This document shows, piece by piece, positions 13,456 through 63,288 of a stretch of DNA of 64,000 bases; position 1 is the stretch's first letter; each line of letters begins with the position of its first letter. This stretch comes from Craspedostauros australis. Taxonomy: Eukaryota > Bacillariophyta > Bacillariophyceae > Mastogloiales > Achnanthaceae. The DNA is taken from positions 1,302,001-1,366,000 of the forward strand of contig JAMXDE010000003.1 of assembly GCA_026770025.1 (NCBI GenBank), read 5' to 3'. The position numbers were made by a program, and so were the translations under genes. The notes beneath the pieces were generated by a model, which worked only from the letters and a program-made list of their open reading frames with translations, ran no database searches and was not told where the DNA came from.

Positions 13456-16400
13456 ATGAGTGCGATGGATGCGCCAACAACAACAACGACGACGACGACA
13501 ACACCGAAGGATGTCCATGATCTTGGATTGGAATTCGACGATGACGAGGAGTTCCCATGTCGGTTGATCAAGTTCCCCGTTTGGAAATCGAGTGAGGCAG
13601 CAGCAGGCGATGATGGCAATGGTCGCCAGCCGACCTCCCGCATCGATATGGTATCGTACGGTGGCGACGATGGCGTCATCACCTCGATGAGCATGAACAT
13701 GACAGCAGAATCAACGAAAGACGACAGCAATGATGCATCCTCAACTCAAAAGACAATGCCATCCCTGCTGTCCAAGTCACGCATCGCCCGGACCTTCGAT
13801 GAATCCGTGAGAGCCGTTGCGGTTTCCCATGACGGCAAGCGCGTGGCTGTGGGATTCCAAACGGGCCGCACGACCATCTTGCAGTACGATGACTACGATG
13901 GCACATCACGACATCCATTCTGCCGCAGTTCCGCCACCACGCAGTCTCACTTCGGGACGCAGGACAGCGACAGCATGCAGGATCTCGACTTTGGCGATGG
14001 CCTGAGCCAGACTGACGAGGATCAGGAAATCACAGGACCGCACTTGCAGGCACCCGTGCGTGATATGCTCTTCCTGCCGTTCGCCGACTCGAAGGACAGC
14101 TACTTCCTCGCCATCGCTTCCGAGCACTCCTTCTGCATCGTCAATGCCACATCCAGCGAAAGCATCCGCGAGTTCGGACGCGCGTTGGAGCATGACTGCG
14201 AAGAGCACCATTTCGAAAACGGCATCCGCAGTCTGGCCTACAACCACACCCTGAGATGTTTGGCCACGCTGAGCATGGATGGACGGGTGTGCTTGTGGGA
14301 TCTGCAGGCCGCCGCCACGGCGAAGCAATGGAAGCTGGCCCATCAAGAGAAGAAGAAGTGCATCCCGCAGGCCGACACGGGTGAGACCTTCGGAGCGGAT
14401 CCTTGGGATCGTTCGTGCCGTCCGTTGTTCATCACTCAGCCATCGGCTTCGTCATCCAGTGACGCAAGCGTCTACCTCCTGACGCCCGGTCAGACGCAGC
14501 CAGTCATTCGCCGCATCTCCCGAGAGGGCAACAACGGCATCGTTTCTGTTCAGGAACTTGTCCTGAACAAGACATCATCGAGCGACGCATCCAGCATCGG
14601 TCACGTCGAACCCATCACGCAGTTGGTGCAAGAACAGGGAACATCTGCAACGGCGACGGCATTTGGCTTTGTCTCGAGCGGACGTGACGGCAACTTGGTC
14701 CAATGGACCGTGTCGACGCCAACTGGCGGCGATGCAAAGCAATGCTCCACCACCAGCCGGCGCATCGCCATGCCCAATGCCTTCGCAGCTGTCGATCTGC
14801 AGTTCGCCTCCAACATGTCGCCCAGCGCTGAACTCCAAGGCAGATTGATGATGGTCAGCGCCAAGGCCAAGTGCCACATGTTGAACGTTCCCGCATGGAA
14901 GCCACCATCCGAGAAGGCAGCCACAAAACCTGCCACGTCCTCAAAGCTGTTCAAGGACATCGATACGAACGTCGACGATCTGCTCGTGGACTCCGATGAT
15001 GAGGAGGAGAACGAGATGGACATGGGAGCAGAGGATAGCATGAATCCGCAATTCGATACTCAAGATGCAGCCACAATCAAGGCTGCCATGAAAGGCGGCA
15101 GTGCCCCCAAGAAGACTGTGCGGTTTGTGGATGACGAGGCAGACGAGGACGATGATGGCAATGGTGATGATTATGGCCTCACGCAGACACCACAAAGCAA
15201 CCCAGAAGAAGGACTGGAAGATATCGTCGGTGCGCCTTCTGATATTGCTGCCACAACCGGTGATCAGCTCACCCAGGATGTCGGAGATAACACCGAGGAC
15301 GGTGACAACGGCATGGCCAACATTCTCCAGCAAGATGACGAAGATGAAGATGGTGAGCTGGGACAGTATCAACCCTTGGATGGCGCAACAACACGGTCTG
15401 TGCACGGCAGACATGTCATGACTTTGCCTCCGCAACCGCCGTTCGCTCCATCCGCCACACCGCTGGATCTACCACGACGATTCATGTGCTGGAATCACAT
15501 CGGCGCCATCACGCTCGCGCAAGGCGACGAGGATCTCAACGGTCGCCGACAGCAGCGCAACATTGTCGACATCACTTTCACGGACTCGGCCTTCCGTCGC
15601 CCCATCAGTTTCACCGACAACCAAGGTTTCATCCTGGGATCGTTGGGAGAAGACGGCGGCATCTTCGCCACGGACACGCAGGATCCGGATGATGAGGATC
15701 ACACCAACAGCGCCAGCAACGACATGGACGACGACATGGACAACCAAGAATTGGATGACGTCGTGGACGGTTTGAACATCTCGGAACGCACCAAGGCTGC
15801 TGTCCGCCGCAGTCGCCGACGACGTGATCGCGGATCGTCTCAGGCAACCGGATCCAGCATCTACTTCCATCGATTCGAAACCTTCGGATCGCAGCGTGAC
15901 AAGGATTGGTACCTCACTCTGCCAAGCGGTGAGCGTGCCCTCGGAGCTGCCAGCGGTAAAGGATGGGCGGCAGTGGCAACAAGGTAAGACCGGACTGAAG
16001 TGAGAAGCCAAGCGCGAACTTGTGGTGATGTGATGTGATGTGATGTGATGTATTGTTGCTGCCGCCGTGGATATGCTGCGAATATCGTCATCACTTTTTG
16101 CTCAACGTTGATCGATCGAAACATCTCTGATTCCTGTTATGTCTATTGTCGAAACTTGAACTCCCTTTCCAACTCCCATGCTCCAGCCGCCGATACCTAC
16201 GATTCTTTACGAGCGGCGGCAATCAAGGAGTCGTTGTCTGCTTGCCAGGCAACGTCGTTTCCATGGTGGGCCGTTCGCAATTCCTCGCTGTTGTGTATCA
16301 CACCAACTCACCGTTGATGGATGGCACTCAACAACTCGCGTACAGGGTGTACGATGCAGTCCACTTCAAGCTGGTTGCGACCGGTCCAGTGTCGTCGATC

Positions 16401-21890: not shown

Positions 21891-24289
21891 TTAGAGCATC
21901 TCGCGAGCTGAATTTTCCAAGGTGGAATCATATCGACCACCCGGGATCTTGGCATCAAGACCCAGAAGTTGCGTGCTATCATCGTTCATCGTCGACGTGG
22001 ATTCGAGATGGGCCACCTGCTTCACCATTCGGTTCGTCTTCTTGCGGAACATTTCCAGGAACTCAGGGTAGGATACTGTGTGATTAAAAATGAATAGTGA
22101 GGATACAAGATGGGCTGGTGTGAGACGGGGTCTGCTTGTTGCCAATGGCACAGCATGATGCAGCACAGACAACAGCATTGTCACATGGGAGGAACAATAA
22201 CACTCACGTTGACCATCACCGTCCTTGTCGCCCGAGTTGATGATTTCATCAATCTCCTTGGACGTAGTTTCTTCGCCCAGCATCTCGCGCAGGTTCTGCC
22301 GAGATATGAATCCGCTGTCGTCAGAATCCAATCGATCGAAGGCCTCCGCGATGCGTTCTTCGGCGATGTGGCCGTGCGCTTCCAAGGTCGCTGCGAGGAA
22401 TTCGGTGTACATGATGTGGCCGTTGCGGTTGACGTCGATGCTTTCAAAGATCTCCTTGACCGTGTCGGGCGAGTAGTTGGCATCCTGCAGGGCCTTTTCG
22501 AATTCTTCGTAGGTGATGACTCCGTCGTTGGTGGCGTCGTACTGATCGAAGCATTGGCGCAGATGCAAGATCTCCTCCGTGCTGGATCGGTGGGCGATGA
22601 CGTTGAGCGCGATCTTCTTGAGCTGGGATGTGTTCTTGTAGTTGAGGAGGCTTGCGTCGACGGCGGTGGAGATGGTGACATCCGGCTTGCGTTCGGAGAG
22701 GTTGAATTCCTTGGAGAGCCATATGTGCGCCAGTGCATCCGCGGCCCTCATGCGTTTCTTTGGATCGAGAACGAGGAGCTTGCTGACCATGTCTTTGGAT
22801 TCTGGTGACTTGCCATCCCAGTGGCTTCCTTCGACTGAGTACTGGGCGCGCATGATGAGATCGATCATCTGCCTCCGCCTTTTGTGGTAGAACGGTCTGT
22901 GGGACGTGAGGAGCATGTAGGCGATGACACCGCACGACCACAGATCCGCCTGCGATGTGTAGACTCCCTGAAGCACTTGAGCTGCAGGCCAAGTGAATGT
23001 GAATGCGAGTGTGGGTGTGAGAATGAGTTTCATGAAACCAGAGGTGTTGTGATGAGTGGTTGAGAAGTGACGCGAGAAGAGCAGCAGCAATTCAACACAA
23101 GCAAGCGCATAAAATCCAACCGACAAAAGAAGCACGTTGACTTACGAGCCATGGTGTAGATGGTGCCCACTCCTTCCGTCATGGTGTCACGCTGACCGGC
23201 AAGGAACTTCTTGGAAAGTCCAAAATCGATGACCTTGATCTCGGCGTGGTTGGAATTGTTCTCGAACATGATATTTTCGAATTTGAGATCGCGATGGACG
23301 ATGCCATGGTCGTGCAGGTACTTGATGGCAGAAAGGAGCTTGCCCATGATGTTGGCGGATTGCTTTTCCGTGTAGGGTGCGCGCGTGTAGAGATCGTCGC
23401 CGTCGCAAAGCTCAAGGACGATGTAAATTTGCTTCTTGTAGTCGTACACCTCGTGCGCCTTGACGATGTTGGGATGGTCCTGTTATTCGTGATGCGAACG
23501 CGGCCGTGCGAATATTGCGGCAACAGCGACAGAAGAAGCAGACGCAGAGACACAGGCAAATGACAAGTCACCAAATGGTGGAATAGGAAAAGAGAAATAG
23601 AAATGGAAGGAGTATCGAGCGTGAGCATTGCGTGTCCCCCAAATGGGCATCTAACATTCCAGATACGTTCCTTTTATGCCGTACAGCAGCAGCATTCTTC
23701 TCCATTTGATCTGCAGAACCACCATTGCGACGCGCGGTCCAATATGGTCCAAGGCAATCCAAAGAACAATACAGTGCAACAGAGCAACAGAGCAACTGAC
23801 CATCCCCTTGAGAATATCGATTTCGTTGCGCAGTTCATTGAGAAAGAGCGGCGACACGCGGTCCAGAATGATGCTCTTGAGCGCGTAATTGACGGGCACA
23901 TCGCGGCGTTCCTTGATCTCCTCGGGATGCGCCTTGACGCCGCCAAAGACGGTCTTGGTCTTGGTCACGGCCGATCCTCCAATGGCGTCCGGCTTGATCT
24001 GCACTTTGGCCACGAATCCCATGGATCCGTTGCCCAGGACCTTGACGGTGTCGTACTTTTTGAAGACATCGTTCTTCGTCTGGTGCCTCAGCAGGTTGGA
24101 ATGCAGCGACGATCCGGTCGTGTCGCGGCTGGAGGACTTGTGCAGCGAGCCCTTGTCCTTTGCCTTGGTTGTCGCTGTCTTTGCCGTTGTTGCTGTTGTG
24201 GTGGGTGCCGCAGCGGCTGCTGCCTTGTTGCCGCCACCTGCAGGAGAGGTCTCCTGCACCTGCTGTTCGGCTGCCAAGCAGTTGCCCAT
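21891..24289 (-). CDS. Calcium-dependent protein kinase (CDPK) 1
   Basis: Four exons on the minus strand: 24289-23801, 23479-23146, 22981-22208 and 22075-21891. Phases agree, giving 593 residues. It starts MGNCLAA, a good N-myristoylation signal with an adjacent Cys for palmitoylation, so membrane association is likely. Kinase: glycine loop GNGSMGFV (~86-93), ALK lysine ~138, catalytic HRDLKFEN (Asp ~227), DFG ~248, then TMAPQVL in place of APE (APQ). The usual CDPK junction (KKIALNVIAHR) leads to four EF-hands: DATNDGVITYEE, DVNRNGHIMYTE, DSDDSGFISRQN and DKDGDGQLSYPE. The third loop ends in Asn, not Glu, so its Ca2+ binding may be weak. CDPKs translate Ca2+ transients into Ser/Thr phosphorylation. 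A paralogue lies about 3.4 kb away on the other strand. Confidence 0.93.
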
Positions 24290-30295: not shown

Positions 30296-33200
30296 TTACA
30301 CTGCCACCACCATCACGATCGCCGCCATCCATGACATGACACAGCCGAGCAACATGGAAGAGGCATGCCCGCCCCGCGTCATTGCTGCGCTGGTTGGGGA
30401 CGCGGTTGGGGCCGATGTTGACGATGCTTCGGGACTGGCGGATGGTGTCGTGGAAGGGCCCGCACTGGGTCGGAGAGACGGCGTCTCGCTTGACGGTTCG
30501 GTTGGTCTAGCGGAGCCAGTTGGTGTGCCGCTGGGCATGCCTGACGGTTCTCCGGTGGGAATGTCGAACTCGTCGATCGCCAGCAGCTCGGTCGACTGAG
30601 CTGTGGCCAATTCTGGATCGTCGCTGCCTTGCATCGCGGCGGTGTACGATGCCAAGTCCTCAGGCTTACCGAAGGCGGCAAAGATAAAGTCTTGAGCTGA
30701 GAACTGTTCGGCGTCCTCCGCAGAGTCGGCTTGGAATTGGACGGTCGTTTTGAATCGCACCGTGGTCGACTCCTTCTCGTCTCCACCTTCGAGGCGCCGA
30801 GTCACGATAGCCGGCTCATCCGTCGTTGCGTTTGAAGTGAGCAGGCTCACGACAACATCCAGGATTTGGAACCTGTCAGTCGTTTCTGCTGGTTGGGACG
30901 CGAGAATGTGAACTGCTGTCACGTTCTCCCAGGCTGCAGCCGTAGCGTCGCTGACTCCCAGTTGCACAGCCGGCACGATTTGGAGGGTGGAATCGATTTG
31001 GACAGTATACACAATGTCCGAGATTGCGGTTGGAGTTGCGGAAGCGATGGGTGCGTGGGTCGGCGCCATGTCCGGAGAGCCTGTGGGGCCATTCATTGCA
31101 ATGCCATCGATGAAACATGTCTCGAAGTTCCTTTCCATCGCGTCTACACCTCTTCGCAAGTAGGCGAAGATGGAGTCAGATGGAATGTCTCCTGCGTCTT
31201 CCTCACACAAACTATACACGGAGTCCGCCACGATGTTGCGACAGTCAAACCGTGGCTGAGGGATCCCGTCGGCGCAGTTGGTCATCGTGCAGCTAGTGCA
31301 GGGCGCGCCGTCGACGACAACACGGCAGGCCGTGCAGTCCCCCACAATACCGTTGGAGCCCGGGGAAATGCAATCTTTTTGTTCGATGGTAAACGAGGCG
31401 TAGGGTCCGACGACGTTGATGCCTGATGTGGCCGTGATAGTGGTGCGAGATTCTGTGATGGCCCCGCTGGTACTGTTGACTGGCACCATCGCAGAGATTT
31501 GAGCGCAGTAGGTGTCGTTCGTAAGGATGCCGTTGGCGGGGTCACTTGGGTGTTCGTTGTTCTGGCAGTATTCGCAGCGATCTTCGCAGTCGATCAAGTA
31601 TTCTCCGTCAATGACTTGCTGACAAGAATTGGCGGAGCACGTGATGGTCGGGTCGGGACTGATCTGGTCAACGAAGCCCGTGCAGACTTCCTCAGGTGTG
31701 AGTTCAGTACTGGTATCATTGGATGGCATGGAAGTGGGCACCATTGCTGTTGGCAGCATGGTTGGTAGGATAGTTGGCAGCATGGTTGGTGTCGTGGTCG
31801 GAGAGCGTGTGGTGCCATCCGCAAGGCCGTCGACGAAGCATGTGCCGAAACCTTGATCTGGACCATCCCCACCTCGCTGAAAGTAGGCAAAGATGGAGTC
31901 AGAAGGAACGTTCGACACATCTTCCGGACACAAGCTGAACACGGAGCCCGGAATGAGATTGCTGCAATCAATCTGTGGCTGCAGATTTCCGTCCGCACAT
32001 TGGGTCACATTGCAGCTACTGCAGAGTTTGTCATCGACGGAGATGCTGCACGTTGCACAATCCCCAACGAGGGCGTCGGTGGCTGGGGACTTGCAGTCAC
32101 TCTGTGTGATCGTCATGAAGTTGAAGGGTCCGACAACGTTGGTGCCGGATTTGACCGTCACATTGAAGCTGAAGTCGTCGATGACCCCAGTAGTGCTGTC
32201 CACTGGTGTCAAACTGGAGAGCTGACCACAGTAGGTGTCATCTTCCTCAATGTTGTTGGCGGGGTCACTTGGGTGTTCGTTGTTCTGGCAGAACTCGCAG
32301 CGCTCTTCGCACATGATGAGGTAGTGGCCGTCGATGACTTCCTGGCAAGAATTCGGTGAGCAATCGAAGGTTGGGCTGAGGCTCATGAGGCCAGCGAATC
32401 CCATGCAGACTTCCTGTGGTGTTGTCGTGTCTGATGGTGCCTTCGTTGGGGCAGAGGTTGGCATGGAGGTGGGCACCACTGTTGTTGGCACCACTGTTGT
32501 TGGCACCACTGTTGTTGGCACCACTGTTGTTGGCACCACTGTTGTTGGCACCACTGTTGTTGGCACCACTGTTGTTGGCACCACTGTTGTGGGCACCATT
32601 GTTGTGGGCACCATTGTTGTGGGCACCATTGTTGTGGGCACCATTGTTGTGGGCACCATTGTTGTTGGTAGCATGGTTGGTGTCGTGGTCGGAGAGCGTG
32701 TGGTGCCATCCGCAAGGCCGTCGACGAAGCATGTGCCGAAACCTTGATCTGTACCGTTCCCACCTCGCTGAAAGTAGGCAAAGATGGAGTCAGACGGGAT
32801 GCTCGACACATCTTCCGGACACATGCTCAACACGGAGCCCGGAATGAGATTGCTGCAATCAATCTGTGGCTGCAGATTTCCGTCCGCACATTGGATCACC
32901 TTGCAGCCACTGCAGAGTTTGTCATCAACGGAAATGCTGCACGTCGCGCAATCCCCAACGAGGGCGTTGGTGGCTGGGGACTTGCAGTCACTCTGTGTGA
33001 TCGTCATGAAGCTGAAGGGTCCGACGACGTTGGTGCCGGATTTGACCGTCACATTGAAGCTGAAGTCGTCGATGACCCCAGTAGTGCTGTCCACTGGTGT
33101 CAAACTGGAGAGCTGGCCACAGTAGGTGTCATCCTCCTCAATGTTGTTGGCGGGGTCACTTGGGTGTTCATTGTTCTGGCAGAACTCGCAGCGCTCTTGG

Positions 33201-49253: not shown

Positions 49254-52200
49254 ATGGCACCTAATCCACAGCATATCCACGCTTCCACCGATGGGGACGA
49301 TCGCGACGATACTCTGCACGAGCACAGCGGTAACGATCCCACATTCGGACGCGTCCACCAACCAGAGAGCGGAGTTCACCACGCCTACGCACCGGGAAGG
49401 TCTCCAGGAGACGTCGATGCCCATGGTAATCGTATCAACCCTCACAACGCGATGGGCGGCCTCCAAGCTAGTCCAGCCGGCGCAGCCGAGAAGAAAGTGC
49501 CTCAGGTCAATGGTACCAGCCTTGACGATAACGAGAGCACCCCAGCCAAGTCCAGCTCTAACAGCCTCCTGACTCCGACCAGATCCATGTCACAAGAAGA
49601 TGGATCGACTAAGGATATGGAGGAAGGCAGCACGTTTTCGTCAAAGCACAGCCACGCCTCAAGCGCACCATCGAGCTCGAAGAGCCCAAACCACTTCTCG
49701 TCCATAGGTTCCACGAACTCATCCATCTCTGGCGGCCACATGAACCGGCGCAGCTTCGCCCAACGCAACAGCTCCCCTGAGCACGCGCAGGAAACCAAGT
49801 ACGTGGCCGGAGCCAAGGCTCTGGTGGCTTTGGTGCTCCTCGTAGCCACGGGAGTCACAGCGGGGGTCGTGTACTGGTTTACATCCGACACCGAATCAGG
49901 CGACTTCGAGACAAGGGTGAGTACCATACCAACACAGATACGAAGGTAGAGCAGAAGAGTGTCACGCAGCGCACTGTTGTCGAAAGAGTGACTATGTGGC
50001 CACTACTCTTGGCAGCACGCGTGTTAATCAGCCATGCCGGTTCGGATCTGGGTGTGAATTCCCATCCGATTCGGTTTTCATCTTGCTCGAGTTCACACAT
50101 GCAAATCCTCCTCCTCCATGTTGGTGTGGCGCGAGTAGCTGTATGCGTGACTTGCTGTTCCGGTTCTCGTGCCAAAACTGTCTGATCCACCCGCCTGAAA
50201 CCTCGAATCACAACCTAATCCTGTTCTGCCCTACTCGTATGCGTACTGTGCCTTCTTGATTCTCGCTGACCTGGCCCGAATCTGACGTTGGCTGAAAAAC
50301 AATGCACCCTTCCCACCTTTTCCTTCTCGTCTCCCTATCTCATCTGATACATTCGCTCCACGCCACGCTACTCCACTTAACTTCTGCTCTGCTCTCTTGG
50401 CCGGATCCTTATCTAACCACGGTCGCCGCCTCATCCCGAACAGTTCTTGGACTTTGCCAACCAGATCGTAGAGGTCTCGCAAATGAACGTGAGGAATGTC
50501 TTCGAAACATTCGAAACCGCCAGCATTCAGGTCTCTGCCTATGGCGATGGAACGGACCAGAGCTGGCCCAACATGATCATCCCGCACTTCGAGGCCGAGT
50601 TCGCTCCCATCATCAACCACACGGGGGCGAACTATGTCACGTTGACACCGTTCGTCACATCAGAGCAAAGGGCATCGTACGAGGAGTTCGTTCAAAACTC
50701 ATCTCACATTTGGATCGAACGGGGCAAAGAATACAACCACATTCCACCCGAGACCGAGCTGAATTTCCGCCCAGAAATCTGGGGTCTAGACTTTGTGAAT
50801 GGTGGGAGCTTCGTCTCGCCAGCAGATCAGGCCTTGCTGGCCCCAGCATCGCACATCGCACCATTGGCGAGGCGATACAATCTCATCAACTACGACGGAT
50901 TCGCCTACTCTCACTTCGTGCGAGTGTACCAAGACATGATCGATAACCGCGAAGTCATTCTGTCGGAGGTCCTCAACTTGGATCGTCCGTACCAACAGAA
51001 CAATACAAGCACGTGGCCAGAGAGCTTCATGGCAGCACCTGTCTTCAAGTACACGATGGATCGCGACGGGGAGCAGAATCCAATCGTCGCTGCCATCGTT
51101 GGTGCCATGCCATGGCGCCGTTTCTTCGTCAACCTGGTGCCGGAAGGCATCGAGGGGATCATCCTGGTGGTCAAGAACACGTGCGACCAGTCGTTCAGCT
51201 TCATGATCGAAGGTCCGCGGGTGCAGTACATGGGACCGGTGGACTACCAGCAACACGCGTACGGTGATCTGGAGGTCGAGGCCTCATTCACAGCCTTCCG
51301 GAGCTTGGAGGATTGCCAGTTCTCCATGCACCTCTACCCATCGAAGGCCTTCCGGAAGACGTACGAAACGAAGATCCCGCTCTTCAGCACGCTCGCTACT
51401 GTCGCCATCTTCATCTTGACAACCGGCGTCTTCGTCCTCTACGATTGCCTCGTGGAGAGGCGGCAGCTCAAGGTCGTCACCTCCGCAAACCGTTCGAACG
51501 CCATCATCAGCTCCCTGTTCCCAGACAACGTCCGAGACCGATTGATGCATTCGGGAGATGCAGAAGATCGGGCTGGCGAGCCACCAAAGAAGGACAAGAA
51601 GAGTCCCAAGCACTTCCTCAACCGATACGCGGCTCACATCGCTGATGGCATAGCGGCCCGTTCCGGCTCCTCAGACCACACCCACGAACTGCAAGAACGG
51701 CCGATCGCCGACTTCTTCCCATCTGTGACGGTCCTCTTCGCCGACCTGGCCGGTTTCACGGCTTGGTCCAGCACGCGCGAGCCTGCCGAGGTCTTCACGC
51801 TACTCGAGGCGCTGTACGGCACCTTCGACAAGCTCGCCAGAGGGCTGGGGGTCTTCAAGGTCGAGACCATCGGAGACTGCTACGTTGCCGCATGCGGTCT
51901 TCCCGAACCACGCGCCGATCACGCAGTCGTCATGTTTCGCTTCTCTCGTCATTGCCTCAGCAAGATGAAGCAGCTGGTCACCAAACTATCCGTGAAGCTG
52001 GGGCCAGAAACGGCCGAGCTCAGGATGAGGTTCGGGCTGCATTCAGGCCCGGTCACTGCCGGTGTGCTGCGCGGCGAGAAGTCTCGTTTCCAGCTCTTCG
52101 GAGACACGGTCAACACCGCATCTCGCATGGAGAGCAGCGGAATTGCCGACAAGATCCAGCTGTCGCAGCAGGCAGCTGATGAGCTCGCCCGGTGCGGCAA

Positions 52201-53779
52201 GCAGCACTGGTATACTCCGCGGTCGAAAAAGGTCCATGCCAAGGGCAAAGGCGAGCTCCAGACTTACCTCGGCGTCGAGACGCTCTCGTCACCGTCATCG
52301 AAAGGAGGCAAGACAGCTTCGAAGGCAGCCAACTCTGGTGGTAGAGCTGGGATCGACAAGAGCTCACATAGCGCCCATGGCAAGATCGTGCGGCACAGAA
52401 GTCAACGAGCTGGCCTTTCGCACAGCAGAGCTCTGGCACTAGATGCTGCAAACAAGGACGCCTCCTCCACTTCCATCGTGGGCGACGACTATGATGACGA
52501 CCAGCATGTCACCAATGACGACGACGATGACGTTTTCGGTGATCAAGGCGCTACAGCAAGCCACGAGTACGAGTTCCAGCACCATGTCGAATGGAACATC
52601 GAGACCTTGCAACTTCTTCTCAAGAACATCATCGCGATGAGGCACAGCACGGCAATCGACGCGAATACCATCCGGGGACTTTCCATCACCGAAGAAATCG
52701 ACGGCACAGTTCTGGACGAAGTCAAGGAGATCATCCACTTGCCCAACAAGATGAACAAGTACAAGAGGAACCCCAACGGTGTCCAGTTGCCCACAGCGGC
52801 CCAGGAGCAACTCAGGGATTACGTCCAGACCATCGCCAAGATGTACCATTCCAATCCATTCCACTCCTTCGCCCATGCCAGCCACGTCGTCCAGTCAGTG
52901 CGAAAGCTGCTGTCACGTATCGTGGCGCCGAAGATCGACTGGGAGAAGGCCAGCACCGACTACCAGCAGTACGACCAGAAGGCGATGCACGACTTCACCT
53001 TCGGCATCACCTCGGACCCGATCACGCAGTTCGCGTGTATCTTCGCGGCCCTGATCCACGACGTTGATCATGCCGGAGTCCCCAACACGACCCTGATCAA
53101 GGAGAAACGCGAGATCGCGGTGCACTACAAGAACAAGTCGGTGGCAGAACAGAATAGCATCGACCTGGGGTGGAGCCTGCTGTTCGAACCTCGCTACGCA
53201 GACCTGCGAGCCTGCATCTACAGCAACCAGCACGAGCTCGACCGCTTCCGCCAGCTGGTCGTAAACTCCATCATCGCGACGGACATCATGGACGGCGACC
53301 AAAAGCAGATGCGCAATGCTCGCTGGCACAAGGCATTCTTCGAGAACGGCGGCAACGCCCAGGCTCACGCTCACACCGCAATCAACGCCTCGAGGTTCCA
53401 TTTGGCACCACAGGGACACACCCAGGTGAACCGCAAGGCAACGATCGTCATCGAGCACATCATCCAGGCATCTGACATCGCCCACACCATGCAGCACTGG
53501 CACATCTACCTCAAGTGGAATGAGAAGCTGTTCGACGAGATCTACAAAGCTCACCTTGCCGGCAGAGTCGACAAGGATCCGTCAGATAACTGGTACGAGG
53601 GCGAATTGGGTTTCTACGACAACTACATCATCCCGCTGGCCAAAAAGCTGAAGGAATGCGGGGTGTTCGGAGTGTCGTCGGACGAGTACCTTAACTACGC
53701 CCAGGCCAACCGGATGGAATGGGCGATGAGAGGCCAGGAGGTGGTGAAGGGCTACCTCGCAAAGTACGACCGATCCTAG
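49254..53779 (+). CDS. Receptor guanylate cyclase-phosphodiesterase fusion 1
   Basis: Two exons, 49254-49916 and 50444-53779, joined in phase 0, giving 1332 residues. Order: Ser-rich cytosolic tail (1-188), TM1 (~189-209), a ~320-residue extracellular domain beginning FLDFANQIVEVSQMN, TM2 (~534-558, IFILTTGVFVLY), class III nucleotide cyclase (~645-830), acidic linker, class I PDE (~1000-1310). Cyclase: metal Asp in VLFADLAGFT and ETIGDCYV, Asn/Arg in FGDTVNTASRMES. Glu in KVETIGD is the guanine-recognising form, favouring GTP, although the partner Cys position is Gln (FQLFGD). PDE: FHSFAHASH, HDVDHAGVPN and SDIAHTMQHW supply the metal site. One polypeptide can therefore both make and destroy a cyclic nucleotide, probably cGMP, under control of an external signal. 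GC-PDE receptors of this kind have been linked to pheromone signalling in pennate diatoms. Its paralogue follows 2 kb downstream. Confidence 0.92.
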
Positions 53780-54513
53780 GACCGGTGGATGGGCACGAAG
53801 CGCGTAGCGTGGGGAAAGCACGTATGAGTATGGGAGGTGGGGAAACTTCGACAAGGAAATGCACCAAGAGACATGCTCGGAGGCAGGGTCTGTTGGATTG
53901 GCCATCGGAGGTTATGTGCATTAAAGTATGAATACAAGTGTTGCTTGCATTATTCATACATACGCTTAGGTCGTATGCATTTGGATACGAGTTGAATAGT
54001 GCGCGGGTGGTTGGTACGGATACAAGCACTCCAGAGTACCTCGGGTGCGAGGCAGTTGGAAACGAAAGCAGCAGCTGTTCTGTCCTATCGTTCTGCTCTT
54101 CCGTTCTCGCATCACCAACTTGATCTTATGGATTGCAGCACCTACTTTACGAGTGGGTCACTGAGGACCGAAAGAGCCTCATACTCCTTCGCTCCTTTGC
54201 GCCACCAAGCCTCGTTGATGAGCAAAGGAAACGGAAACGATGGTCATCGTTGCAGAATGTAGTCGAGGATGATTCCAATCCAGGAAAGTACGATCTCAGA
54301 TATGATTCGGGAACGTGAAAGCTGAGCAGTAAAGTTGAATCAATATGCATCTTTCCATGGACAGCACCACCAAATGCGATGTCATGCAATGCATTGCAGC
54401 AACTCTGCCTTTCCGGGAGCACAATTGTGCTGTTCCCACGACAGATGATGAGGAAGATGCATCAAGGACGGCAAAATCAAACATCTCGGTGGTTTGGGGT
54501 ATCGTCAACAACG

Positions 54514-54540
54514 AAAACAACAACAACAACAACAACAACA
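54514..54540. repeat. (AAC)n microsatellite
   Basis: About nine AAC triplets in non-coding sequence. Confidence 0.9.
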
Positions 54541-55180
54541 GCGCTTCTGTAGCCGTGGCAGCCGTGTACTCGTTCCGTTTCCTGGAAGGATGAGGTTTGC
54601 TATGCCACAATTGACGTTTTGTTGGGGACTACTCGTATGACAGTTCTGCGGACACGCCTTGGGCTCTTTTTGGTGCATCACCAGGCAAAAGTTAAACGAC
54701 CAGGCATGCCCTGAGAGTTTTGCGTGCGCGATCCGCGAGAGGTTTCTGCGAAGGGGAATATGAACCCTTGGTGTCTTTGTTCGCCACGTGGCTCTGTGCA
54801 TCCCGATTGGAGAACCCTGCCAAACCAAAGCGCATGTGGATGACGCGCGAGGGGGGTTATGCGGTTTGTGCCAACACCAACACGCCACAATGAGGCTTTG
54901 AAATCAACCAAGAACACAATAACTGCGATCTGTCCACGCGCTTCTCCAGGCAAATACGACCAAGGAAGGAAACAAGCGATTTTGCCTTCACAACCACGGA
55001 CACCGGTACTCGTTGTACTCGTGTTGGGGAGACAACTACCAGAGCGAAAACAGAAGACAAAGCCACACAGCAGATGGAGGTGGACTAATTCTAATTCCTG
55101 GTTGGTTCATCGATTTTGAACACAAACTCAAACGCGCGCGCACACGTGTGATCTGCGCTGGTTGCGGTCTTTGGCGTGGC

Positions 55181-55235
55181 CACACAGCATTCACACACAG
55201 CATTCACACACAACATTCACACACAACATTCACAC
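55181..55235. repeat. 13-bp tandem repeat
   Basis: Four copies of a CACACAGCATTCA-type unit (two with GCATT, two with ACATT), about 560 bp upstream of the second GC-PDE start. Confidence 0.85.
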
Positions 55236-55792
55236 TCGCCCTCGCGAGAGTCACAACCTGCATGAGGATCGCTCACCTCCGACGACACAACACAACACAA
55301 TTCGAACGAGAACAATCTCAAATCGACACCGACAACAGTTCCAACACCAACACCAACACCAACGCAACCACGGAGAGTCCCCATCTTCACATACCCTTAT
55401 AATTATCACAGAAACAGGAAGGATCATCACAGTAAGACCAATCAGGTTTCCAAGGATTGCATCACGTTGCGCCTCACACAAGTCCAACCTCCAGCGCATC
55501 CATTGCATCATCAACGCAACCTGGCTGCGGAAGACCTCATCTTCCAAGACGAAGCACCCTTTGGCTTTGTTGCCAGTCCGCGCAACGCAACACTCGCAGA
55601 AACGTGGGCCCACCAACAGCACTATTCCCTGAACCACACAGCTCACACACTGCGCAGGTGGAGGCGCTCGGAGAGAAGCAAGGCTGCGGTGACATCGTGC
55701 CACTACGCATACAAGTACTCGTACTCGTACGTTGACAGAACTTCCACGCAGCAACCAGCGCAACATTCTCCAACCCAACCCCTGCCATCACC

Positions 55793-58700
55793 ATGAGCAG
55801 TTTCAGCTTCGATTCGATGGAATCATCCCCCGGAACCAAGAGCAAAGCCGACAGCAAATGCAACAGCAACTTCAAGGACGAATACGGCCAAAGCAAGCAC
55901 AGAAACAGCGGCGGCGGACGCCTCGATTCAACTTGCCCGATTTCAATGGAATCCATCACATCAGAAGCAATTGGCACCAACAGTGTCGATGGCAACAGCT
56001 CTCGAAGCAACAACAGCAACAGGAGCGGCAAGCTCATGTCATCACGGAGCGCACGAAAGACAACGGGCGACGATTTTGCCAGGAAGGAAACGAAGTACCT
56101 CACATTCTCGAAAGGGCTGGTGTTCTTGGTACTGTGCATCGCGGCCGTCCTCAGCGCATACGGCGTGTACCGAGCATCAGCATCGGACGATGAAGAGGCG
56201 TACGAAACGAGGGTGAGTGCTGATGGAGTTACGAGCGCGGAGCATGATGCGATGCGCATCAGCAGCTCCTGTTGATTTGGAATCCGTTGGTCGCCCATGA
56301 CCGATGCCACGATGGTTGTCATGACAATTCGCATTTGGGTCATTGCCTTTGTCAATTCACCGATCGTGTTGGAACCATCACTCGGAGCAAAAGTGTCGTT
56401 GATCTTGAGGCCCCTGCAGAATTGGACTTGTTCAAAGCCGCAATTCCTGTTTTGGTGACGCTCGTGTGAAGTCTGTTGGGTTCGTTGTCGTGTCCTTGGC
56501 AGCTTATTTCTTTGTTTCACCAACGCCATTTCTTGCTGAGTGATCACAAACGGCACAAGAAACGGGCTTTAAAATCTGTCTTTTTTGCTTCCAATCGAAT
56601 TCGCCGCAGGACGGTTCATTCGTTCCCAATAACCGTTTTGTCAACGCAAACGAATCTCACAACTTCTCCATTGCTGCATCATTCTTCGGACCAAATCGCA
56701 ACCGCAACGCGACATACTTCGTCACCCATCATCCATCACGGTACTTTTGCATATCTCTCTGCGATATAAACATGAACAACATCAACAGTTCAATGACTTC
56801 GCCAATGAGATCATCGCCGTGTCCAAGCTCAATGCAGAAGCAGTCGTCCAGGCCTACGAGACGATGAGCCTGCACATCACGGCTGCATCGGATGTCGAAG
56901 CGTGGCCCTCAGTGATTGTGGCAGGATTTGAAGGTCTTTCCCGAGACATGATGGACTTCACGGAGACTCGATTCGTCGGTCTGACGCAGCTGGTTCCTAT
57001 TGACGAGAGAGACGAGTTCGAGCAGTTTCAGCTGAACAATCGAGAGTGGATAGAGGATGCCGTCAAGTTCTCTCACGAGGGCGACTCTGCCACAACGATC
57101 CAAGCGGCACTTGATACTGTCGACTCTTCCATAACCCCGTACATCTTCGATCGACACGATGAAACCAATGTGCCTGAACGAGCAGCCAAAACAGCCACTC
57201 TGAGAACCGGCAATATCAATGGCAACAGCAACGGAGAGGAGATGGAATACTTCCTACCGTTGGCACAGATATCACCAATCCTCCAGCAAGCACCATCCGT
57301 GAATTTCAACGTGTTGGATCGGCCATACCTAGCCATTGAACACGAACGCGTCAAGGCCATCAGAGCAACTGTGCTTTCCAACTTCACGCTCAGCAACGAA
57401 CAAGAAGTTACGGCCGATCGTCGGACATGGCCCTCAAGCACAATGGCCACGCCCATTTGGCGCACGCTCAAGTTCAGCAAAGACGAGCAAAGCGTCGGTG
57501 ACATGGTGGGGATGATCACGGGTGACATGCCGTGGCATGGGTACTTCCATGATCTCATCCCGGAGGGTATCGACGGAGTTTACCTGGTGGTGCGTAGCAC
57601 GTGCGGCGGCGTCATCACGTTTCGAATCGATGGACCGGAAGTAACCTTCCTGGGCAACGGTGATCTGCATGTTTCGGAGGATGACCTGGAGGTGATGTCA
57701 GACTTTGACCGTTTCGGGACTTTGGAAGCATGCCAGTACACACTCCATCTCCATCCCACGAAGGCGTTCCATTCGCGGTATCACACCAACCAACCGATCA
57801 TCAACACCATCACGGTCGTCCTGACCTTCGTGTTGACGACCTTCGTGTTCATTCTGTACGATATCATGGTGGAGAGCCGGCAATCGAAGGTGATGAAGAT
57901 CGCAACGCGGTCCAGCACAATCGTGAACTCCCTGTTCCCGGACAACGTGCGAGACCGGCTCATGAATGAGGACGGCAGCGACGAGGGCAACTCGGAGCAA
58001 AGACGCAAGAGCGGTGCAAGTCAAGCACTTGCGGCTTTTGGTGGCACTAGTGCCGCCGCAGATCAGGTGGTGGGGATGCAAGCCGGTGGAGATCAGATTC
58101 GATCGGGACCACCCTTCAAGGCCAAGCCAATCGCGGACCTGTTTCCCCAAGTCACCGTCCTGTTTGCTGATATCGTGGGGTTCACGGGTAAGTCATGGTC
58201 TGACGACTGCAAGTCTGGAAGGCGGTATGGGCATACCTCTCTGGCTCTCATGCCCAGAGCCTTCGTCGTTGTAATCTGATAGCGCTGTCCGCCCGCGGAG
58301 TATCCTTTGTCCAGGACTTCATGCTCAACATTATACTCACCAACTGCCATCTATCGCTTGCAAATGCCCTCTCATACGTCCCAACCACCCAACAGCGTGG
58401 GCAAGCATCCGAGAACCTTCCCAAGTATTCGAGCTGCTGGAAACAGTGTACAATTCCTTCGACCGCATGGCTCGCCGGCTGGGCGTGTTCAAGGTGGAGA
58501 CCATCGGCGACTGCTATGTCGCGGCGACTGGGCTTCCCGAACAACGAGCAGACCATGCCGTCGTGATGGCACGCTTCGCGAAGGGTTGTTTGATCAAGCT
58601 CCAATCGGTCCTCCATGAATTGTGCATGACACTCGGCCCAGGCACGAAAGATCTGTCGATACGAATCGGCCTCCATTCTGGACCCGTCACGGCCGGAGTG

Positions 58701-60557
58701 CTGCGCGGCGATAAGTCGCGATTCCAGCTCTTTGGTGACACAGTCAACACGGCCGCCAGGATGGAGCAAACCGGCAAGCCGGGTGAAATCCACATCTCCC
58801 AAGAGACTGCGGATGCGCTGGTCACGTCCGGCAAAACGGACTGGGTGATCCCAAGAAGGGATGCCATCGTCGCCAAAGGGAAGGGGACACTCAGCACATT
58901 CTGGGTGCAAACGCCTGCAAGGAACCCGATTACGGAGGACACTTGGAGCAGCAATTCCAATTCTGCTCACGCTCAGCAGCACCGGCGCGATGAGGCTGTC
59001 GCTGATAGCGATGGCGGGGATGAGTCAGGAAGCTATTGTCATGGTGCCACGGTCGATGCCGATAGCGACAGCGATGGCTTTGCCAGAGTTGGTAGTGTCG
59101 GCGAGGTGCGCGAGAAGAATTTGGAGGAGCACGCCGGGACAGGCGCGACGGAAACGGAAAAGTACGACAGCATCATCGAAGAGGCCGCATCACAGGCGCC
59201 TGCCACGAAGAAGCCATCGTCACAACGGCGCAGACGATCGCGCTTGCATACACAGGTATCTTTGATGGAGTTGGAGATCCAGTGGAACGTTGATGCGCTG
59301 CTGACCATGCTGAAACGGATCGTCGCGATGCGTCCGCCTGCTGATGATCAAAAGGATGGCCGTCGCAGCACTCACCCGGGGTCATCAGATGGAGGCACTC
59401 CCAGATGGCAACCAACCGTCGCAGGAACCCCGTTCGATGAATTGGAGGAAGCCATCGAATTTCCAAGCGAGACATCGCAGTACCTGCGCGACCCGGCCAC
59501 CATCCAGCTGGATGGCAAGGTCCGAGAACAGGTGGAAGACTTCGTGCGCCAAATCGCCAGCATGTACCGTGACAATCCATTCCACAACTTCTCCCATGCC
59601 AGCCACGTCGTCCAATCCACGATGAAGCTGCTGTCACGCGTCGTGACGAAGGACACCATCGACTACAAGGCCATGCAGTACAAGAAGGAACAGTCCGATC
59701 AGATGCTGCATGCATTCACGTACGGCATCACGTCCGATCCCATCACGCAATTCAGCTGCGTCCTGGCTGCGTTGATCCATGACATCGATCATCATGGCGT
59801 TCCCAATTCGCAGCTTGTGAAGGAGAACACCCGCGTGGCACAGACCTACAACAACAAGAGCGTGGCGGAGCAGAATTCATTGGACTTGGCATGGGACTTG
59901 CTGATGGATGAGAGTTACAGTGATTTCCGGGATTGCATCTACATGGACGACCACGAGCTGAATCATTTCCGACAGCTGATGGTGAACATGGTGCTCGCCA
60001 CCGATATCATGGACAAGGAGCTGGGATCCGTGCGCAAGGCGCGCTGGATAAAGTCGTTCGACCAACGACGATCGCTGCATGCCAACATCAATCGGAGATC
60101 GTTGGAGATCATGGGTGGCCTGGAATCTCTGTCTAGCGGGGTGAGCCAGGACGAGGCAGCTGAAGCGGCAATGCCACCGGTGGACCAGATCGCAGTCAAT
60201 CGCATGGCGACCATCGTGATCGAACATCTGATCCAGGCATCGGACGTCGCCCACACGATGCAGCACTGGCACATCTATTTGAAATGGAACGAACGGTTGT
60301 TCCATGAGATGTACCGCGCGTATCAGGAAGGTAGGTCCGAGACGGACCCGTTGCTGGGATGGTACCAAGGTGAGTTGTCGTTCTTCGATTTCTACATCAT
60401 CCCGCTTGCCAAAAAGCTGAGGGAATGCGGCGTCTTCGGCGTGAGTTCTGATGAGTACCTCAACTACGCTCTCGCCAACCGTCGCGAATGGGAATCGAGG
60501 GGAGAAGAGACGGTCCAGACGTACTTGGGGAAGTACAGGGGCGAAATCAAGCGGTAG
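55793..60557 (+). CDS. Receptor guanylate cyclase-phosphodiesterase fusion 2
   Basis: Three exons, 55793-56212, 56789-58187 and 58396-60557, in consistent phase, giving 1326 residues. The architecture matches the upstream paralogue: short Ser-rich tail, TM1 (~108-128), extracellular domain starting FNDFANEIIAVSKLN, TM2 (~477-501, VLTTFVFILYD), cyclase from ~595, PDE to the C terminus. The second intron splits the cyclase inside VLFADIVGFT-AWAS, a position where gene 1 has none. Cyclase keeps both metal Asp, Glu in KVETIGD, Gln in FQLFGD, and Asn/Arg in TVNTAARME. PDE motifs are FHNFSHASH (~1003), HDIDHHGVPN (~1068) and SDVAHTMQHW. The first exon corresponds in position and phase to that of gene 1. 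The linker between cyclase and PDE differs strongly, which would allow different regulation. Confidence 0.92.
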
Positions 60558-60995: not shown

Positions 60996-61170
60996 GTGGT
61001 GGCCGCTTGTTTCAGCCGCTGCTTTTGGCTCTCTTGATGCGCCAGAGTTGACACTCATGTCCATGGCAATACCGCGTTCGCACGACTTTGGATGCCGTTG
61101 ACGAGGGATCAACGATACCACGATACATCAGAATACGCTGAACATCACCGTGTTCGGAACGAGTGGAGGG
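60558..61170. other. Intergenic region with (GTTGTC)n
   Basis: About 610 bp between tandem plus-strand genes, with a hexanucleotide (GTTGTC)n run at 60957-60994. An upstream exon of the LRR-like gene cannot be excluded. Confidence 0.5.
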
Positions 61171-63288
61171 ATGGGACCAACCAAGGCGACAGCGTCGATG
61201 CCAAGAGCAATGGCGACGGTGGGCGCGCCACTCGGCAAGCAGAGCCAACAGCCAGAGCCTGGCGATCGCCAACGCAAGCATCAGAAGCAACAGCCGCAAC
61301 AGCCGCAGCCGTCGAAGGCCCGTAAACTGCGTTCGGACTACCAGTTCCAAACCCTGTGGAAGATGATCGTGGAGGAATACGAACCGTTGGGAGGGCCTCC
61401 GTACACTCCAGACAGCTGCAGGAAGAAGACGAGGAGATCGAGGATGCTTCCCATGAGGTTGCGTGATTGGCAGATGCTCGATCAGGCGCAGCAGCGCTCC
61501 GATGCTCGTCCTGGTGCCGACGGCAGCAGTCCAAGCCAATGTGTTGGCAGCCGCATCATGGATGAGGGCGTGGACTTTGAGTGGTCGCAGCTGGAACGGC
61601 TGGTGCGACGCTGGAAGTGCCTCTTCGTCACGCCTTTCTGGCTGTGCCATCGCGAATCTCTCACCAACATGAAGCTCTTGCCACAGATGGATCTCAATGG
61701 AGTCCGGATCCACGTTGATCCCAGGTACGTTGGCGAGAATGGATGCAAACTGCAGTTGTGCTTCCTGATGCGCCTGTTTGCAACACAGCCTCGGCGCTCC
61801 CGCAACTCCCATACCAGTGCAGCAGCAGACATGGATACAGGCGAGAGTGCAAGTACAAGCGCAAGTGCAAGCATGGGCGCATACGACTGCCTTGAGTCAG
61901 CTTACAACCACAGCCGCGGTCACGCAAGTGATGATTGCCATTCCCATCCCTATTGCCAAGGCCAAGGCCACATGAACAACCATGCCCATGAACACGGCCA
62001 CAGAGAATGCGTGATCCGAAAGGACTGCTTGTGGAAGCCAATGTACACCGCGCTGCGGCAGCATCAGACCCAGCTGCGCAAGCTCTCGTTGTCAAATTGC
62101 GATGTCATCGACCCCGCCATGTCTGAGTGGCTGGCCCAGAACATACAGTCCTTATCAATCAGCCGGTGCAGATTTCAAGATGACGGCCGTGCCCTTTGCG
62201 AGCAGCTTGTGCGCACCACGTGCCGCCTTCGCGAGCTCCACCTCAACTGTCTCACAATCGACGCCGATCACCTGGTGCGCGCCATGCAGACGATGCACAC
62301 GGTGCGTGCGTTTGGCATCGAGAGCCTGGCTTTCGTCGGAAGCAGGACGGGCAGCATCGACAGGATCATCCGCGCAGTCGTTGCCAATCCTCACATCCAG
62401 CAGCTCTCGCTCAGCGGCAACGCGGAGGCGGGAAATTGGCTGGATCGATTGCTCATGCTGATACGGGCAAAACACTTGGTCAAGATCAACTACACGGTCG
62501 GGGCTTCTGATTCTCCACCAACTGCAGCAACGTCGACCAATGCCAACGGAGCAGGTTCGGCCCGAGCCCGGAGACGAAGCCATGTCAGCAACGGCCGCAC
62601 TCGCGTCTTCAACGGAGCAGGCAACACCAATGGCAGTACTGCCAGGGCCGCCACCACCACCGCCCATGCTCTTCTCGCTGACAGAGAACCTGCTACGGCA
62701 GCGGTGGTCGCCGCTCTGTCCGACAACCACTCTCTCATGGAGCTCTCCATACCAGGTGGCATCCTGGATGATCGTTACTACTCTGCCCACGCCCCTCGCA
62801 TCCTACGAGAAAACGCGATCCGCAACTACGTCTTGGTGTTGGCAACGCTGTTCGCCAGCATTCAATCGCATGCGCTGTTCGGGAAGCTGCTGTCCAGCAA
62901 TACAGTGCGCAATCGACCAACCTTGATGTACGAGATACTCAATCGATTCAACAAGATGCTGGTTGATATTTGGGATGATGGACGGGCGGGGCGCTATGAA
63001 GCGCAACTGCAGCTCGTGCAGGGCCTGTCATCCAAGCTGTCGCAGGAGCTGAGAGATCTGAGAGACATCCACATCAATCTCCACAGTGAAAGCCGGCCAG
63101 CAGTGCCACCAACGAAACGACGGCGGCTGTCGTCTACGCCCAACGAAAAGCATATGGCTGCGGTTCTGCCATACAACTTGGAACGCCTGCACGTTGACGG
63201 CCATCATCATTTTGGCGCAGAAAAAAGGCAAGCCGATGCTGGGAATGCCACTGCGTCTGATTCGTTGATATCTGCTTGGTACAGTTAG
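61171..63288 (+). CDS. LRR-like (RNI-type) protein, nuclear signal
   Basis: 705 residues from the ATG at 61171; the frame extends upstream to a GTG, and a further 5' exon is possible. The N-terminal ~60 residues are Gln/Pro-rich. Residues ~60-240 hold a globular region (LERLVRRWKCLFVTPFWLCH; NGVRIHVDPRYVGENG). A His/Ser-rich insert follows. Residues ~300-480 contain leucine-rich units of the ribonuclease-inhibitor kind (LRKLSLSNCDVIDPAMSEWL; LRELHLNCLTIDADHL; IQQLSLSGNAEAGNWLDRLL). The C-terminal part is helical (LMYEILNRFNKMLVDIWDDG; LQLVQGLSSKLSQELRDLRD). It ends near a PPTKRRRLS cluster that suits a nuclear localisation signal. LRRs mediate protein binding; no catalytic motif is seen and no specific function can be assigned. 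Similar LRR proteins of unknown function are common in diatom genomes. Confidence 0.7.
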   Translation: MGPTKATASMPRAMATVGAPLGKQSQQPEPGDRQRKHQKQQPQQPQPSKARKLRSDYQFQTLWKMIVEEYEPLGGPPYTPDSCRKKTRRSRMLPMRLRDWQMLDQAQQRSDARPGADGSSPSQCVGSRIMDEGVDFEWSQLERLVRRWKCLFVTPFWLCHRESLTNMKLLPQMDLNGVRIHVDPRYVGENGCKLQLCFLMRLFATQPRRSRNSHTSAAADMDTGESASTSASASMGAYDCLESAYNHSRGHASDDCHSHPYCQGQGHMNNHAHEHGHRECVIRKDCLWKPMYTALRQHQTQLRKLSLSNCDVIDPAMSEWLAQNIQSLSISRCRFQDDGRALCEQLVRTTCRLRELHLNCLTIDADHLVRAMQTMHTVRAFGIESLAFVGSRTGSIDRIIRAVVANPHIQQLSLSGNAEAGNWLDRLLMLIRAKHLVKINYTVGASDSPPTAATSTNANGAGSARARRRSHVSNGRTRVFNGAGNTNGSTARAATTTAHALLADREPATAAVVAALSDNHSLMELSIPGGILDDRYYSAHAPRILRENAIRNYVLVLATLFASIQSHALFGKLLSSNTVRNRPTLMYEILNRFNKMLVDIWDDGRAGRYEAQLQLVQGLSSKLSQELRDLRDIHINLHSESRPAVPPTKRRRLSSTPNEKHMAAVLPYNLERLHVDGHHHFGAEKRQADAGNATASDSLISAWYS

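Follow-up and report, generated by a model that had tools for sequence, protein, structure and literature searches.

The 64,000-nucleotide (nt) stretch of Craspedostauros australis DNA analysed here (the window; contig JAMXDE010000003.1 of assembly GCA_026770025.1) carries two neighbouring genes, each encoding a predicted membrane protein in which a class III guanylate cyclase (GC) is joined to a class I cyclic-nucleotide phosphodiesterase (PDE). All positions are those of the whole window, and the gene models were built from open frames and predicted splice sites without transcripts. Gene 1 has two exons and one GT-AG intron and encodes 1332 amino acids (aa); gene 2 has three exons and two GT-AG introns and encodes 1326 aa, with no internal stop in either. 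The limits of the pair, 49254 and 60557, coincide exactly with the ATG that opens gene 1 and the stop that closes gene 2. The genes are on the same strand, 2013 nt apart, and their proteins are 40% identical (543 of 1344 aligned columns). The first intron falls at the same ETR|F junction in both, and the protein alignment was regained across each junction once the predicted introns were removed. According to Pfam and hydropathy, both proteins run in the order tail, transmembrane (TM) helix, ectodomain, TM helix, class III cyclase, variable linker and class I PDE; the stretch between the two hydropathy peaks presumably lies outside the cell.

Pfam matched both enzymes strongly in both spliced proteins (Guanylate_cyc in gene 2, expectation value (E) 3.8e-48; the other values are in Table 1). 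The cyclases keep the two metal Asp residues, the GC-type Glu of the guanine site, and the catalytic Asn and Arg. The PDEs keep the general-acid His, two further His, the HD motif (HDVDH or HDIDH), the third metal Asp and the purine-clamp Phe. Both genes thus belong to the class III cyclases by metal Asp, Asn and Arg and to PDEase_I by metal ligands and HD. The sequence-only reading of this stretch had described two adjacent same-strand paralogues, each a sensor receptor with a cyclase and a PDE whose metal and catalytic residues are intact, and had proposed profile searches as a check; the spliced models, Pfam, hydropathy and residue alignments agree with it in both domains of both genes. It had also raised the case of cyclase and PDE on separate mRNAs. 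This is unlikely for either window gene, because the gene 1 cyclase and PDE share one unbroken 1120-codon frame and the gene 2 PDE shares a 760-codon frame with most of its cyclase, so that a single transcript is favoured. In a crude best-match test, cyclase and PDE lay in a single frame at 14 of 23 fusion loci, the window genes included; at the other nine the frame was broken by a stop or a frame change, which we provisionally took to be introns.

Beyond that reading, both window genes depart from the textbook residues in both purine sites: the Gln of the PDE purine site is Glu, and the Cys of the cyclase guanine site is Gln. The PDE Gln is called invariant in the available text of PMC13095499 and "a hallmark" in that of PMC7720076. 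In a profile alignment to PDE4D, the diatom Glu fell on this Gln with the spacing to the next Phe unchanged; the "invariant" Gln is therefore missing from both genes, while their profile family membership stands. Of the Glu and Cys that mark the guanine site of class III guanylate cyclases, both genes keep only the Glu. To our knowledge this Cys is not universal among guanylate cyclases, and a Gln is still able to donate to guanine O6.

A whole-genome profile search of the assembly (74.8 Mb, 90 contigs) yielded 127 cyclase and 113 PDE places after merging of exon matches, with about 103 GC-PDE pairs in which the PDE lies 0.4-1.3 kb downstream of the cyclase on the same strand. Among these 103 pairs, 29 fusions were readable, each place being counted once and L007 omitted, as its fetched piece stops short of the site. 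All 29 have Glu at the PDE purine site, which forms an invariant column in the alignment of 20 of them (A4), and all 29 have Gln at the cyclase guanine-site Cys position. None of the 29 shows a change in the five metal and acid residues of the PDE, in its clamp Phe, or in the Asn and Arg of the cyclase, and the cyclase metal Asp residues are kept wherever readable (27 and 28 fusions). The neighbouring cyclase Glu is Glu in 26 and unread in one; in L011 and L047, whose match starts beside an intron, the residue reads as Q or K, which is taken as an edge effect. A codon pattern for FQLFGDT, which spans the cyclase Gln, occurred at 111 places in the genome, against none for the reversed control. 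It was present in 88 and absent from four of the 92 pairs (of the 103) held on contigs C1-C59. Half of the unpaired cyclase places (12 of 24) carry it; eight of the 12 lacking it were read, with Cys in L003, Gly in L001, L002 and L005, and Ser in L004. The other three of the eight, the cyclase-like places L062, L065 and L066, have Ala at the site and altered metal or catalytic residues, and are perhaps pseudo-cyclases. In a 46-row cyclase tree, the Gln-type cyclases formed one group of 38 (support 100/100).

The ten unpaired PDEs were more varied at the purine site, with Gln in L052, L058 and L059, Glu in L053-L055 and Asp in L056, L057, L060 and L061. L055 and L060, which are possibly decayed, each lack a metal residue as well. 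In L061 and L057 the frame extends into a long Ser- and Lys-rich tail. The residue register at the site is right because the flanks of the Gln-keeping L052 match the fusion motif (WFGNQIGF). A His three residues after the third metal Asp was found in all 29 fusions and also in L052, so it is not tied to Glu, and we rejected the idea that Glu and this His form a new pair.

The same Gln-to-Glu change at the same position has been made in human PDE9 (Q453E; Hou et al. 2011, PMC3069055). According to the available text of that paper, the KM (Michaelis constant) for cyclic GMP (cGMP) rose from 0.113 to 2.8 μM, a 25-fold weaker affinity, and kcat (turnover number) was halved; the enzyme stayed active and its preference for cGMP over cyclic AMP (cAMP) fell from 337 to 29, still in favour of cGMP. 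These figures weaken the notion that Glu locks the PDE on cGMP. By analogy, the diatom fusion PDEs should be active but with a lower affinity for cGMP. PDE9 Q453E is a laboratory mutant of an otherwise normal PDE, whereas the diatom Glu is natural and present in every readable fusion, and the natural pocket may make up for the change by means not open to the mutant. A different reading takes the PDE half not mainly as an enzyme but as a cGMP-binding or scaffolding module, in which the lost Gln weakens hydrolysis and the domain senses its product for feedback. Glu in place of the "invariant" Gln in all 29 fusions and Asp in four of the ten unpaired PDEs would fit it, but the metal ligands and general-acid His are kept in all 29 and PDE9 Q453E retains half its kcat (PMC3069055), and we consider it quite unlikely. 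The re-set purine sites might also make and degrade another nucleotide, or cAMP besides cGMP, as would suit the joint deviation of both sites and the compressed cGMP/cAMP selectivity of PDE9 Q453E (PMC3069055). This appears distinctly improbable, since the cyclase keeps its GC-type Glu and has no Lys/Asp pair of the kind known from adenylate cyclases.

The two catalytic halves are under constraint. In six paralogue pairs, dN/dS (nonsynonymous to synonymous substitution) was 0.05-0.24 for the cyclase and 0.14-0.21 for the PDE, indicating purifying selection on both, although the test is rough, since members recur between pairs and dS is saturated in two of them. Identity between the window genes is 63% over 195 residues in the cyclase and 57% over 346 in the PDE, but 27% over 92 aligned residues in the tail and 23% over 145 in the cyclase-PDE linker, in line with the divergent tails and linkers of the sequence-only reading. 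Two intact, conserved domains on one chain, perhaps in one dimer, might work as a reciprocal ligand switch, one ectodomain state driving the cyclase and the other the PDE, so that cGMP is pulled up or down. Such an arrangement seems unlikely to us: the linker is long and variable, contrary to tight conformational coupling, and the Pfam scan of both proteins placed no regulatory domain between cyclase and PDE. The pulse generator or ligand-controlled switch put forward by the sequence-only reading stays a hypothesis. A TIM21 match in gene 1 (Pfam E 0.082) was below the cut-off and was dismissed.

The true number of genes could be below 103, because haplotype copies or duplicates of very recent origin may be among the pairs, for example L038 and L039 (dS 0.016-0.029); introns could also hide further members. 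The same assembly gave 88 matches to the silicon transporter family and 61 to the light-harvesting family, as befits a photosynthetic diatom host. The gene 1 PDE, searched against viral contigs, gave no confirmed relative. The sequence-only reading had taken the window genes for sub-functionalised tandem duplicates. Their adjacency on one strand, 2013 nt apart, speaks for a tandem duplication of recent date, after which the two sensors became sub-functionalised, and so does the genome, in which 12 of 16 neighbouring pairs within 20 kb are same-strand, the window pair among them. The two genes are not nearest paralogues, however, because in a 30-row tree each groups with closer relatives elsewhere, gene 1 with L035 and L045 (support 98/94) and gene 2 with L032, L016 and L029 (100/98). 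This tree samples the roughly 103 family members and unsampled rows could change its topology; 11 of its 27 inner branches are well supported, including those placing the two genes. Best matches by domain agree with the tree, the intron content of the genes is unlike, and silent-site estimates by a rough method are mostly above 1. We therefore regard recent tandem duplication as very improbable, and the earlier claim does not hold as written.

Judging from sequence similarity, the ectodomain may be a CHASE domain that has diverged. In gene 1 it contains N-x-S/T sites and two Cys that are invariant across paralogues in alignment A2, which comprises 14 of 22 candidate loci, the others being excluded for stops (three) or for their short length (five). 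Five of these 14 ectodomains matched CHASE at E <= 0.1, two above the Pfam cut-off (L028, 2.7e-6; L035, 1.6e-5) and three below it (gene 1, which is L030, 0.006; L034, 0.013; L029, 0.016). Cut out alone, the gene 1 ectodomain gave E 0.0044, also below the cut-off. A CHASE scan of the genome found four places, one of which (C23:667609, E 2.7e-5) lies in the same 1092-aa frame as a GC-PDE pair. The best CHASE match in the genome, L025 on C48 (E 5.2e-20), is on a contig without a GC or PDE match; two records of CHASE relatives in plasmids were not used. In the ectodomain, the Pfam scan of both whole proteins listed nothing above cut-off. NCBIfam gave sub-cut-off matches only. The ectodomain profile found nothing credible in the PDB, the row at 5e-6 being a 25-residue flagellin-hook match with no stretch passing alone. 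The stretch after the second TM helix is conserved between the window genes and across paralogues and ends in FPxNVRDRL; we take it to correspond to the helix ahead of the cyclase in receptor cyclases, which passes the signal into the cyclase dimer.

Considering these readings together, we tentatively favour, at close to even chances, that both genes encode a guanylate cyclase gated by a ligand and tethered to a low-affinity cGMP sink capping local cGMP signals. A ligand would bind the extracellular, possibly CHASE-type domain between the two TM helices, and binding would re-set the conserved juxtamembrane helices and switch on a cyclase that presumably acts as a homodimer, the direction of this control being likewise presumed. 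The cyclase, with its catalytic residues present, would then make cGMP from GTP, and the PDE of the same chain, with its metal residues present, would hydrolyse it. Because the purine Gln is Glu, the affinity of the PDE for cGMP is, by analogy with PDE9, probably in the micromolar range, and the PDE would then spare low cGMP and act only once the local level rises. The resulting cGMP signal would be capped in level, short in range and self-terminating, not a futile cycle, and the divergent ectodomains and tails of the many paralogues would bring many ligand inputs into one messenger. The GC-type Glu kept in the cyclase supports this reading. Several points weigh against it. PDE9 Q453E lost some of its cGMP selectivity (337 to 29, PMC3069055), and the PDE9 background may not be transferable to the diatom PDE. 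CHASE was not listed when gene 1 exon 2 or the whole protein was scanned with Pfam, the gene 2 ectodomain matched no Pfam family, and hhalign, run with the ectodomain profile on three CHASE sequences from the same genome, gave E 0.0002 with a probability of only 47%. AlphaFold models of ectodomain and PDE, made from two-sequence alignments, reached a mean pLDDT (predicted local distance difference test) of 36 and 41, showing neither fold.

On a wider view, which we hold as possible but rather doubtful, diatom GC/PDE fusions would be a distinct class of bifunctional receptors in which both purine pockets were re-set together (Cys to Gln, Gln to Glu) into a matched cGMP source and low-affinity sink, about 100 copies with varied ectodomains making up a main chemosensory repertoire of the cell with built-in level limiters. 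With about a hundred receptors of this type, a single genome would hold a large and mostly unread sensory repertoire. In S. robusta, another diatom, seven cyclase genes rose in response to the exudates of one bacterium, and two of the seven include a PDE domain (PMC6688387). The glutamine switch has been argued against with the same Q-to-E mutation in PDE9, in the available text of PMC3069055; a natural Glu for the "invariant" Gln makes this dispute testable in enzymes that evolved with Glu.

Table 1. Annotated features of the two GC-PDE genes in the window.
Feature	Position	Strand	Evidence or remark
Gene 1 exon 1, Ser-rich N-tail and TM1	49254..49916	+	ATG at 49254, donor GTGAGT at 49917
Gene 1 TM1, aa 184-208	49803..49877	+	Hydropathy peak 2.32
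Gene 1 intron, 527 nt, phase 0	49917..50443	+	GT-AG
Gene 1 exon 2: ectodomain, TM2, cyclase, linker, PDE	50444..53779	+	One open frame
Gene 1 ectodomain, to aa 531, possibly CHASE-like	50444..51373	+	Sub-cut-off CHASE match; N-x-S/T sites, two Cys
Gene 1 TM2, aa 532-558	51374..51454	+	Hydropathy
Gene 1 juxtamembrane stretch, ending in SSLFPDNVRDRLM	51455..51550	+	Conserved in alignments A1 and A2
Gene 1 class III cyclase, aa 646-830	51716..52270	+	Pfam PF00211, E 7.7e-45
Gene 1 Gln771 at guanine-site Cys position	52091..52093	+	Residue alignment, codon check
Gene 1 linker, aa 836-985, variable, partly acidic, low-complexity	52286..52735	+	23% identity to gene 2
Gene 1 class I PDE, aa 1027-1292	52859..53656	+	Pfam PF00233, E 1.7e-25
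Gene 1 Glu1275 at "invariant" purine Gln position	53603..53605	+	Alignment, codon check
Gene 2 exon 1, N-tail and TM1	55793..56212	+	Gene model
Gene 2 intron 1, 576 nt, phase 0	56213..56788	+	GT-AG
Gene 2 exon 2: ectodomain, TM2, cyclase start	56789..58187	+	Gene model
Gene 2 TM2	57797..57874	+	Hydropathy
Gene 2 intron 2, 208 nt, within cyclase after GFT, absent from gene 1	58188..58395	+	GT-AG
Gene 2 exon 3: remaining cyclase, linker, PDE	58396..60557	+	Gene model
Gene 2 Gln at guanine-site Cys position	58725..58727	+	Alignment, codon check
Gene 2 class I PDE, aa 1002-1282	59580..60422	+	Pfam PF00233, E 2.8e-27
Gene 2 Glu1266 at "invariant" purine Gln position	60372..60374	+	Alignment, codon check

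Elsewhere in the window, the minus strand has a 2241-aa open frame at 1031-7753, with a Rap/Ran-GAP domain towards its C-terminus, and, at 21894-23141, part of a kinase domain together with EF hands, reminiscent of a calcium-dependent protein kinase. A Ctf4/Mcl1/WDHD1-like protein with WD40 and Mcl1_mid lies at 13177-15984 (+). A 15-bp tandem repeat at 32472-32668 (13 copies, 98% match) sits within a 1278-aa open frame (-) without a Pfam match, and downstream of gene 2 a 728-aa open frame at 61102-63285 (+) has a weak, sub-cut-off leucine-rich-repeat match. In the genome, at least 25 near full-length, stop-free silicon transporters were found among the 88 exon-level matches, some of which carry stops or look like clustered fragments; Nitzschia putrida is described, in the available text of PMC9054022, as having more than twice the usual number.

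The receptor layout has been reported before. The available text of Moeys et al. 2016 (PMC4726125) describes a pheromone-induced S. robusta GC/PDE with two TM helices as a proposed ligand-gated receptor, in which all guanine-binding residues but two, unnamed there, are conserved, and that of Bilcke et al. 2020 (PMC8027222) lists eight differentially expressed GC/PDE genes of the same topology, all up with sex pheromone. The S. robusta genome paper, as far as its available text goes, places cyclases among tandem duplicates and a cGMP family as the most broadly responsive, and N. putrida is enriched in both cyclase and PDE domains in the accessible part of PMC9054022. As described, the S. robusta proteins (Sro991_g228730 and others) share the order found here, a short cytosolic N-terminus, TM helix, extracellular stretch, TM helix, cyclase and PDE; they too come as several genes and are likely cGMP enzymes, a likeness by description and not by sequence. 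Architecture, gene multiplicity and receptor hypothesis are already in print for diatoms (PMC4726125, PMC8027222) and are therefore not new. Of the "distinctive signalling system" proposed from the letters of the window, the receptor with intact cyclase and PDE stands, whereas its distinctiveness gives way to the published S. robusta architecture and the roughly 103 copies here. The main texts of PMC4726125 and PMC8027222 do not contain the words "glutamine" or "CHASE", nor does that of PMC6688387 contain "CHASE". Neither the Glu/Gln signature nor the CHASE assignment turned up in these main texts or among the open-licence diatom papers listed, and both may be in print elsewhere, for example in supplements.

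Outside diatoms, metazoan receptor guanylate cyclases such as the natriuretic peptide receptor resemble the window genes in being transmembrane and in having the GC-type Glu; they differ in having one TM helix, another type of ectodomain and a kinase-homology domain, and no PDE. CHASE-domain cyclases such as Dictyostelium ACG place a CHASE ectodomain between two TM helices ahead of a class III adenylate cyclase, again without a PDE. The CAPE proteins of Marchantia and other streptophytes, as the available text of PMC5159850 and PMC8115329 describes them, do combine a class III cyclase and a class I PDE on one polypeptide, and both activities were shown in vitro (PMC5159850). In CAPE, however, the PDE is N-terminal to a C-terminal adenylate cyclase that makes cAMP (PMC5159850), whereas in the window genes the cyclase comes first and carries the GC-type Glu.

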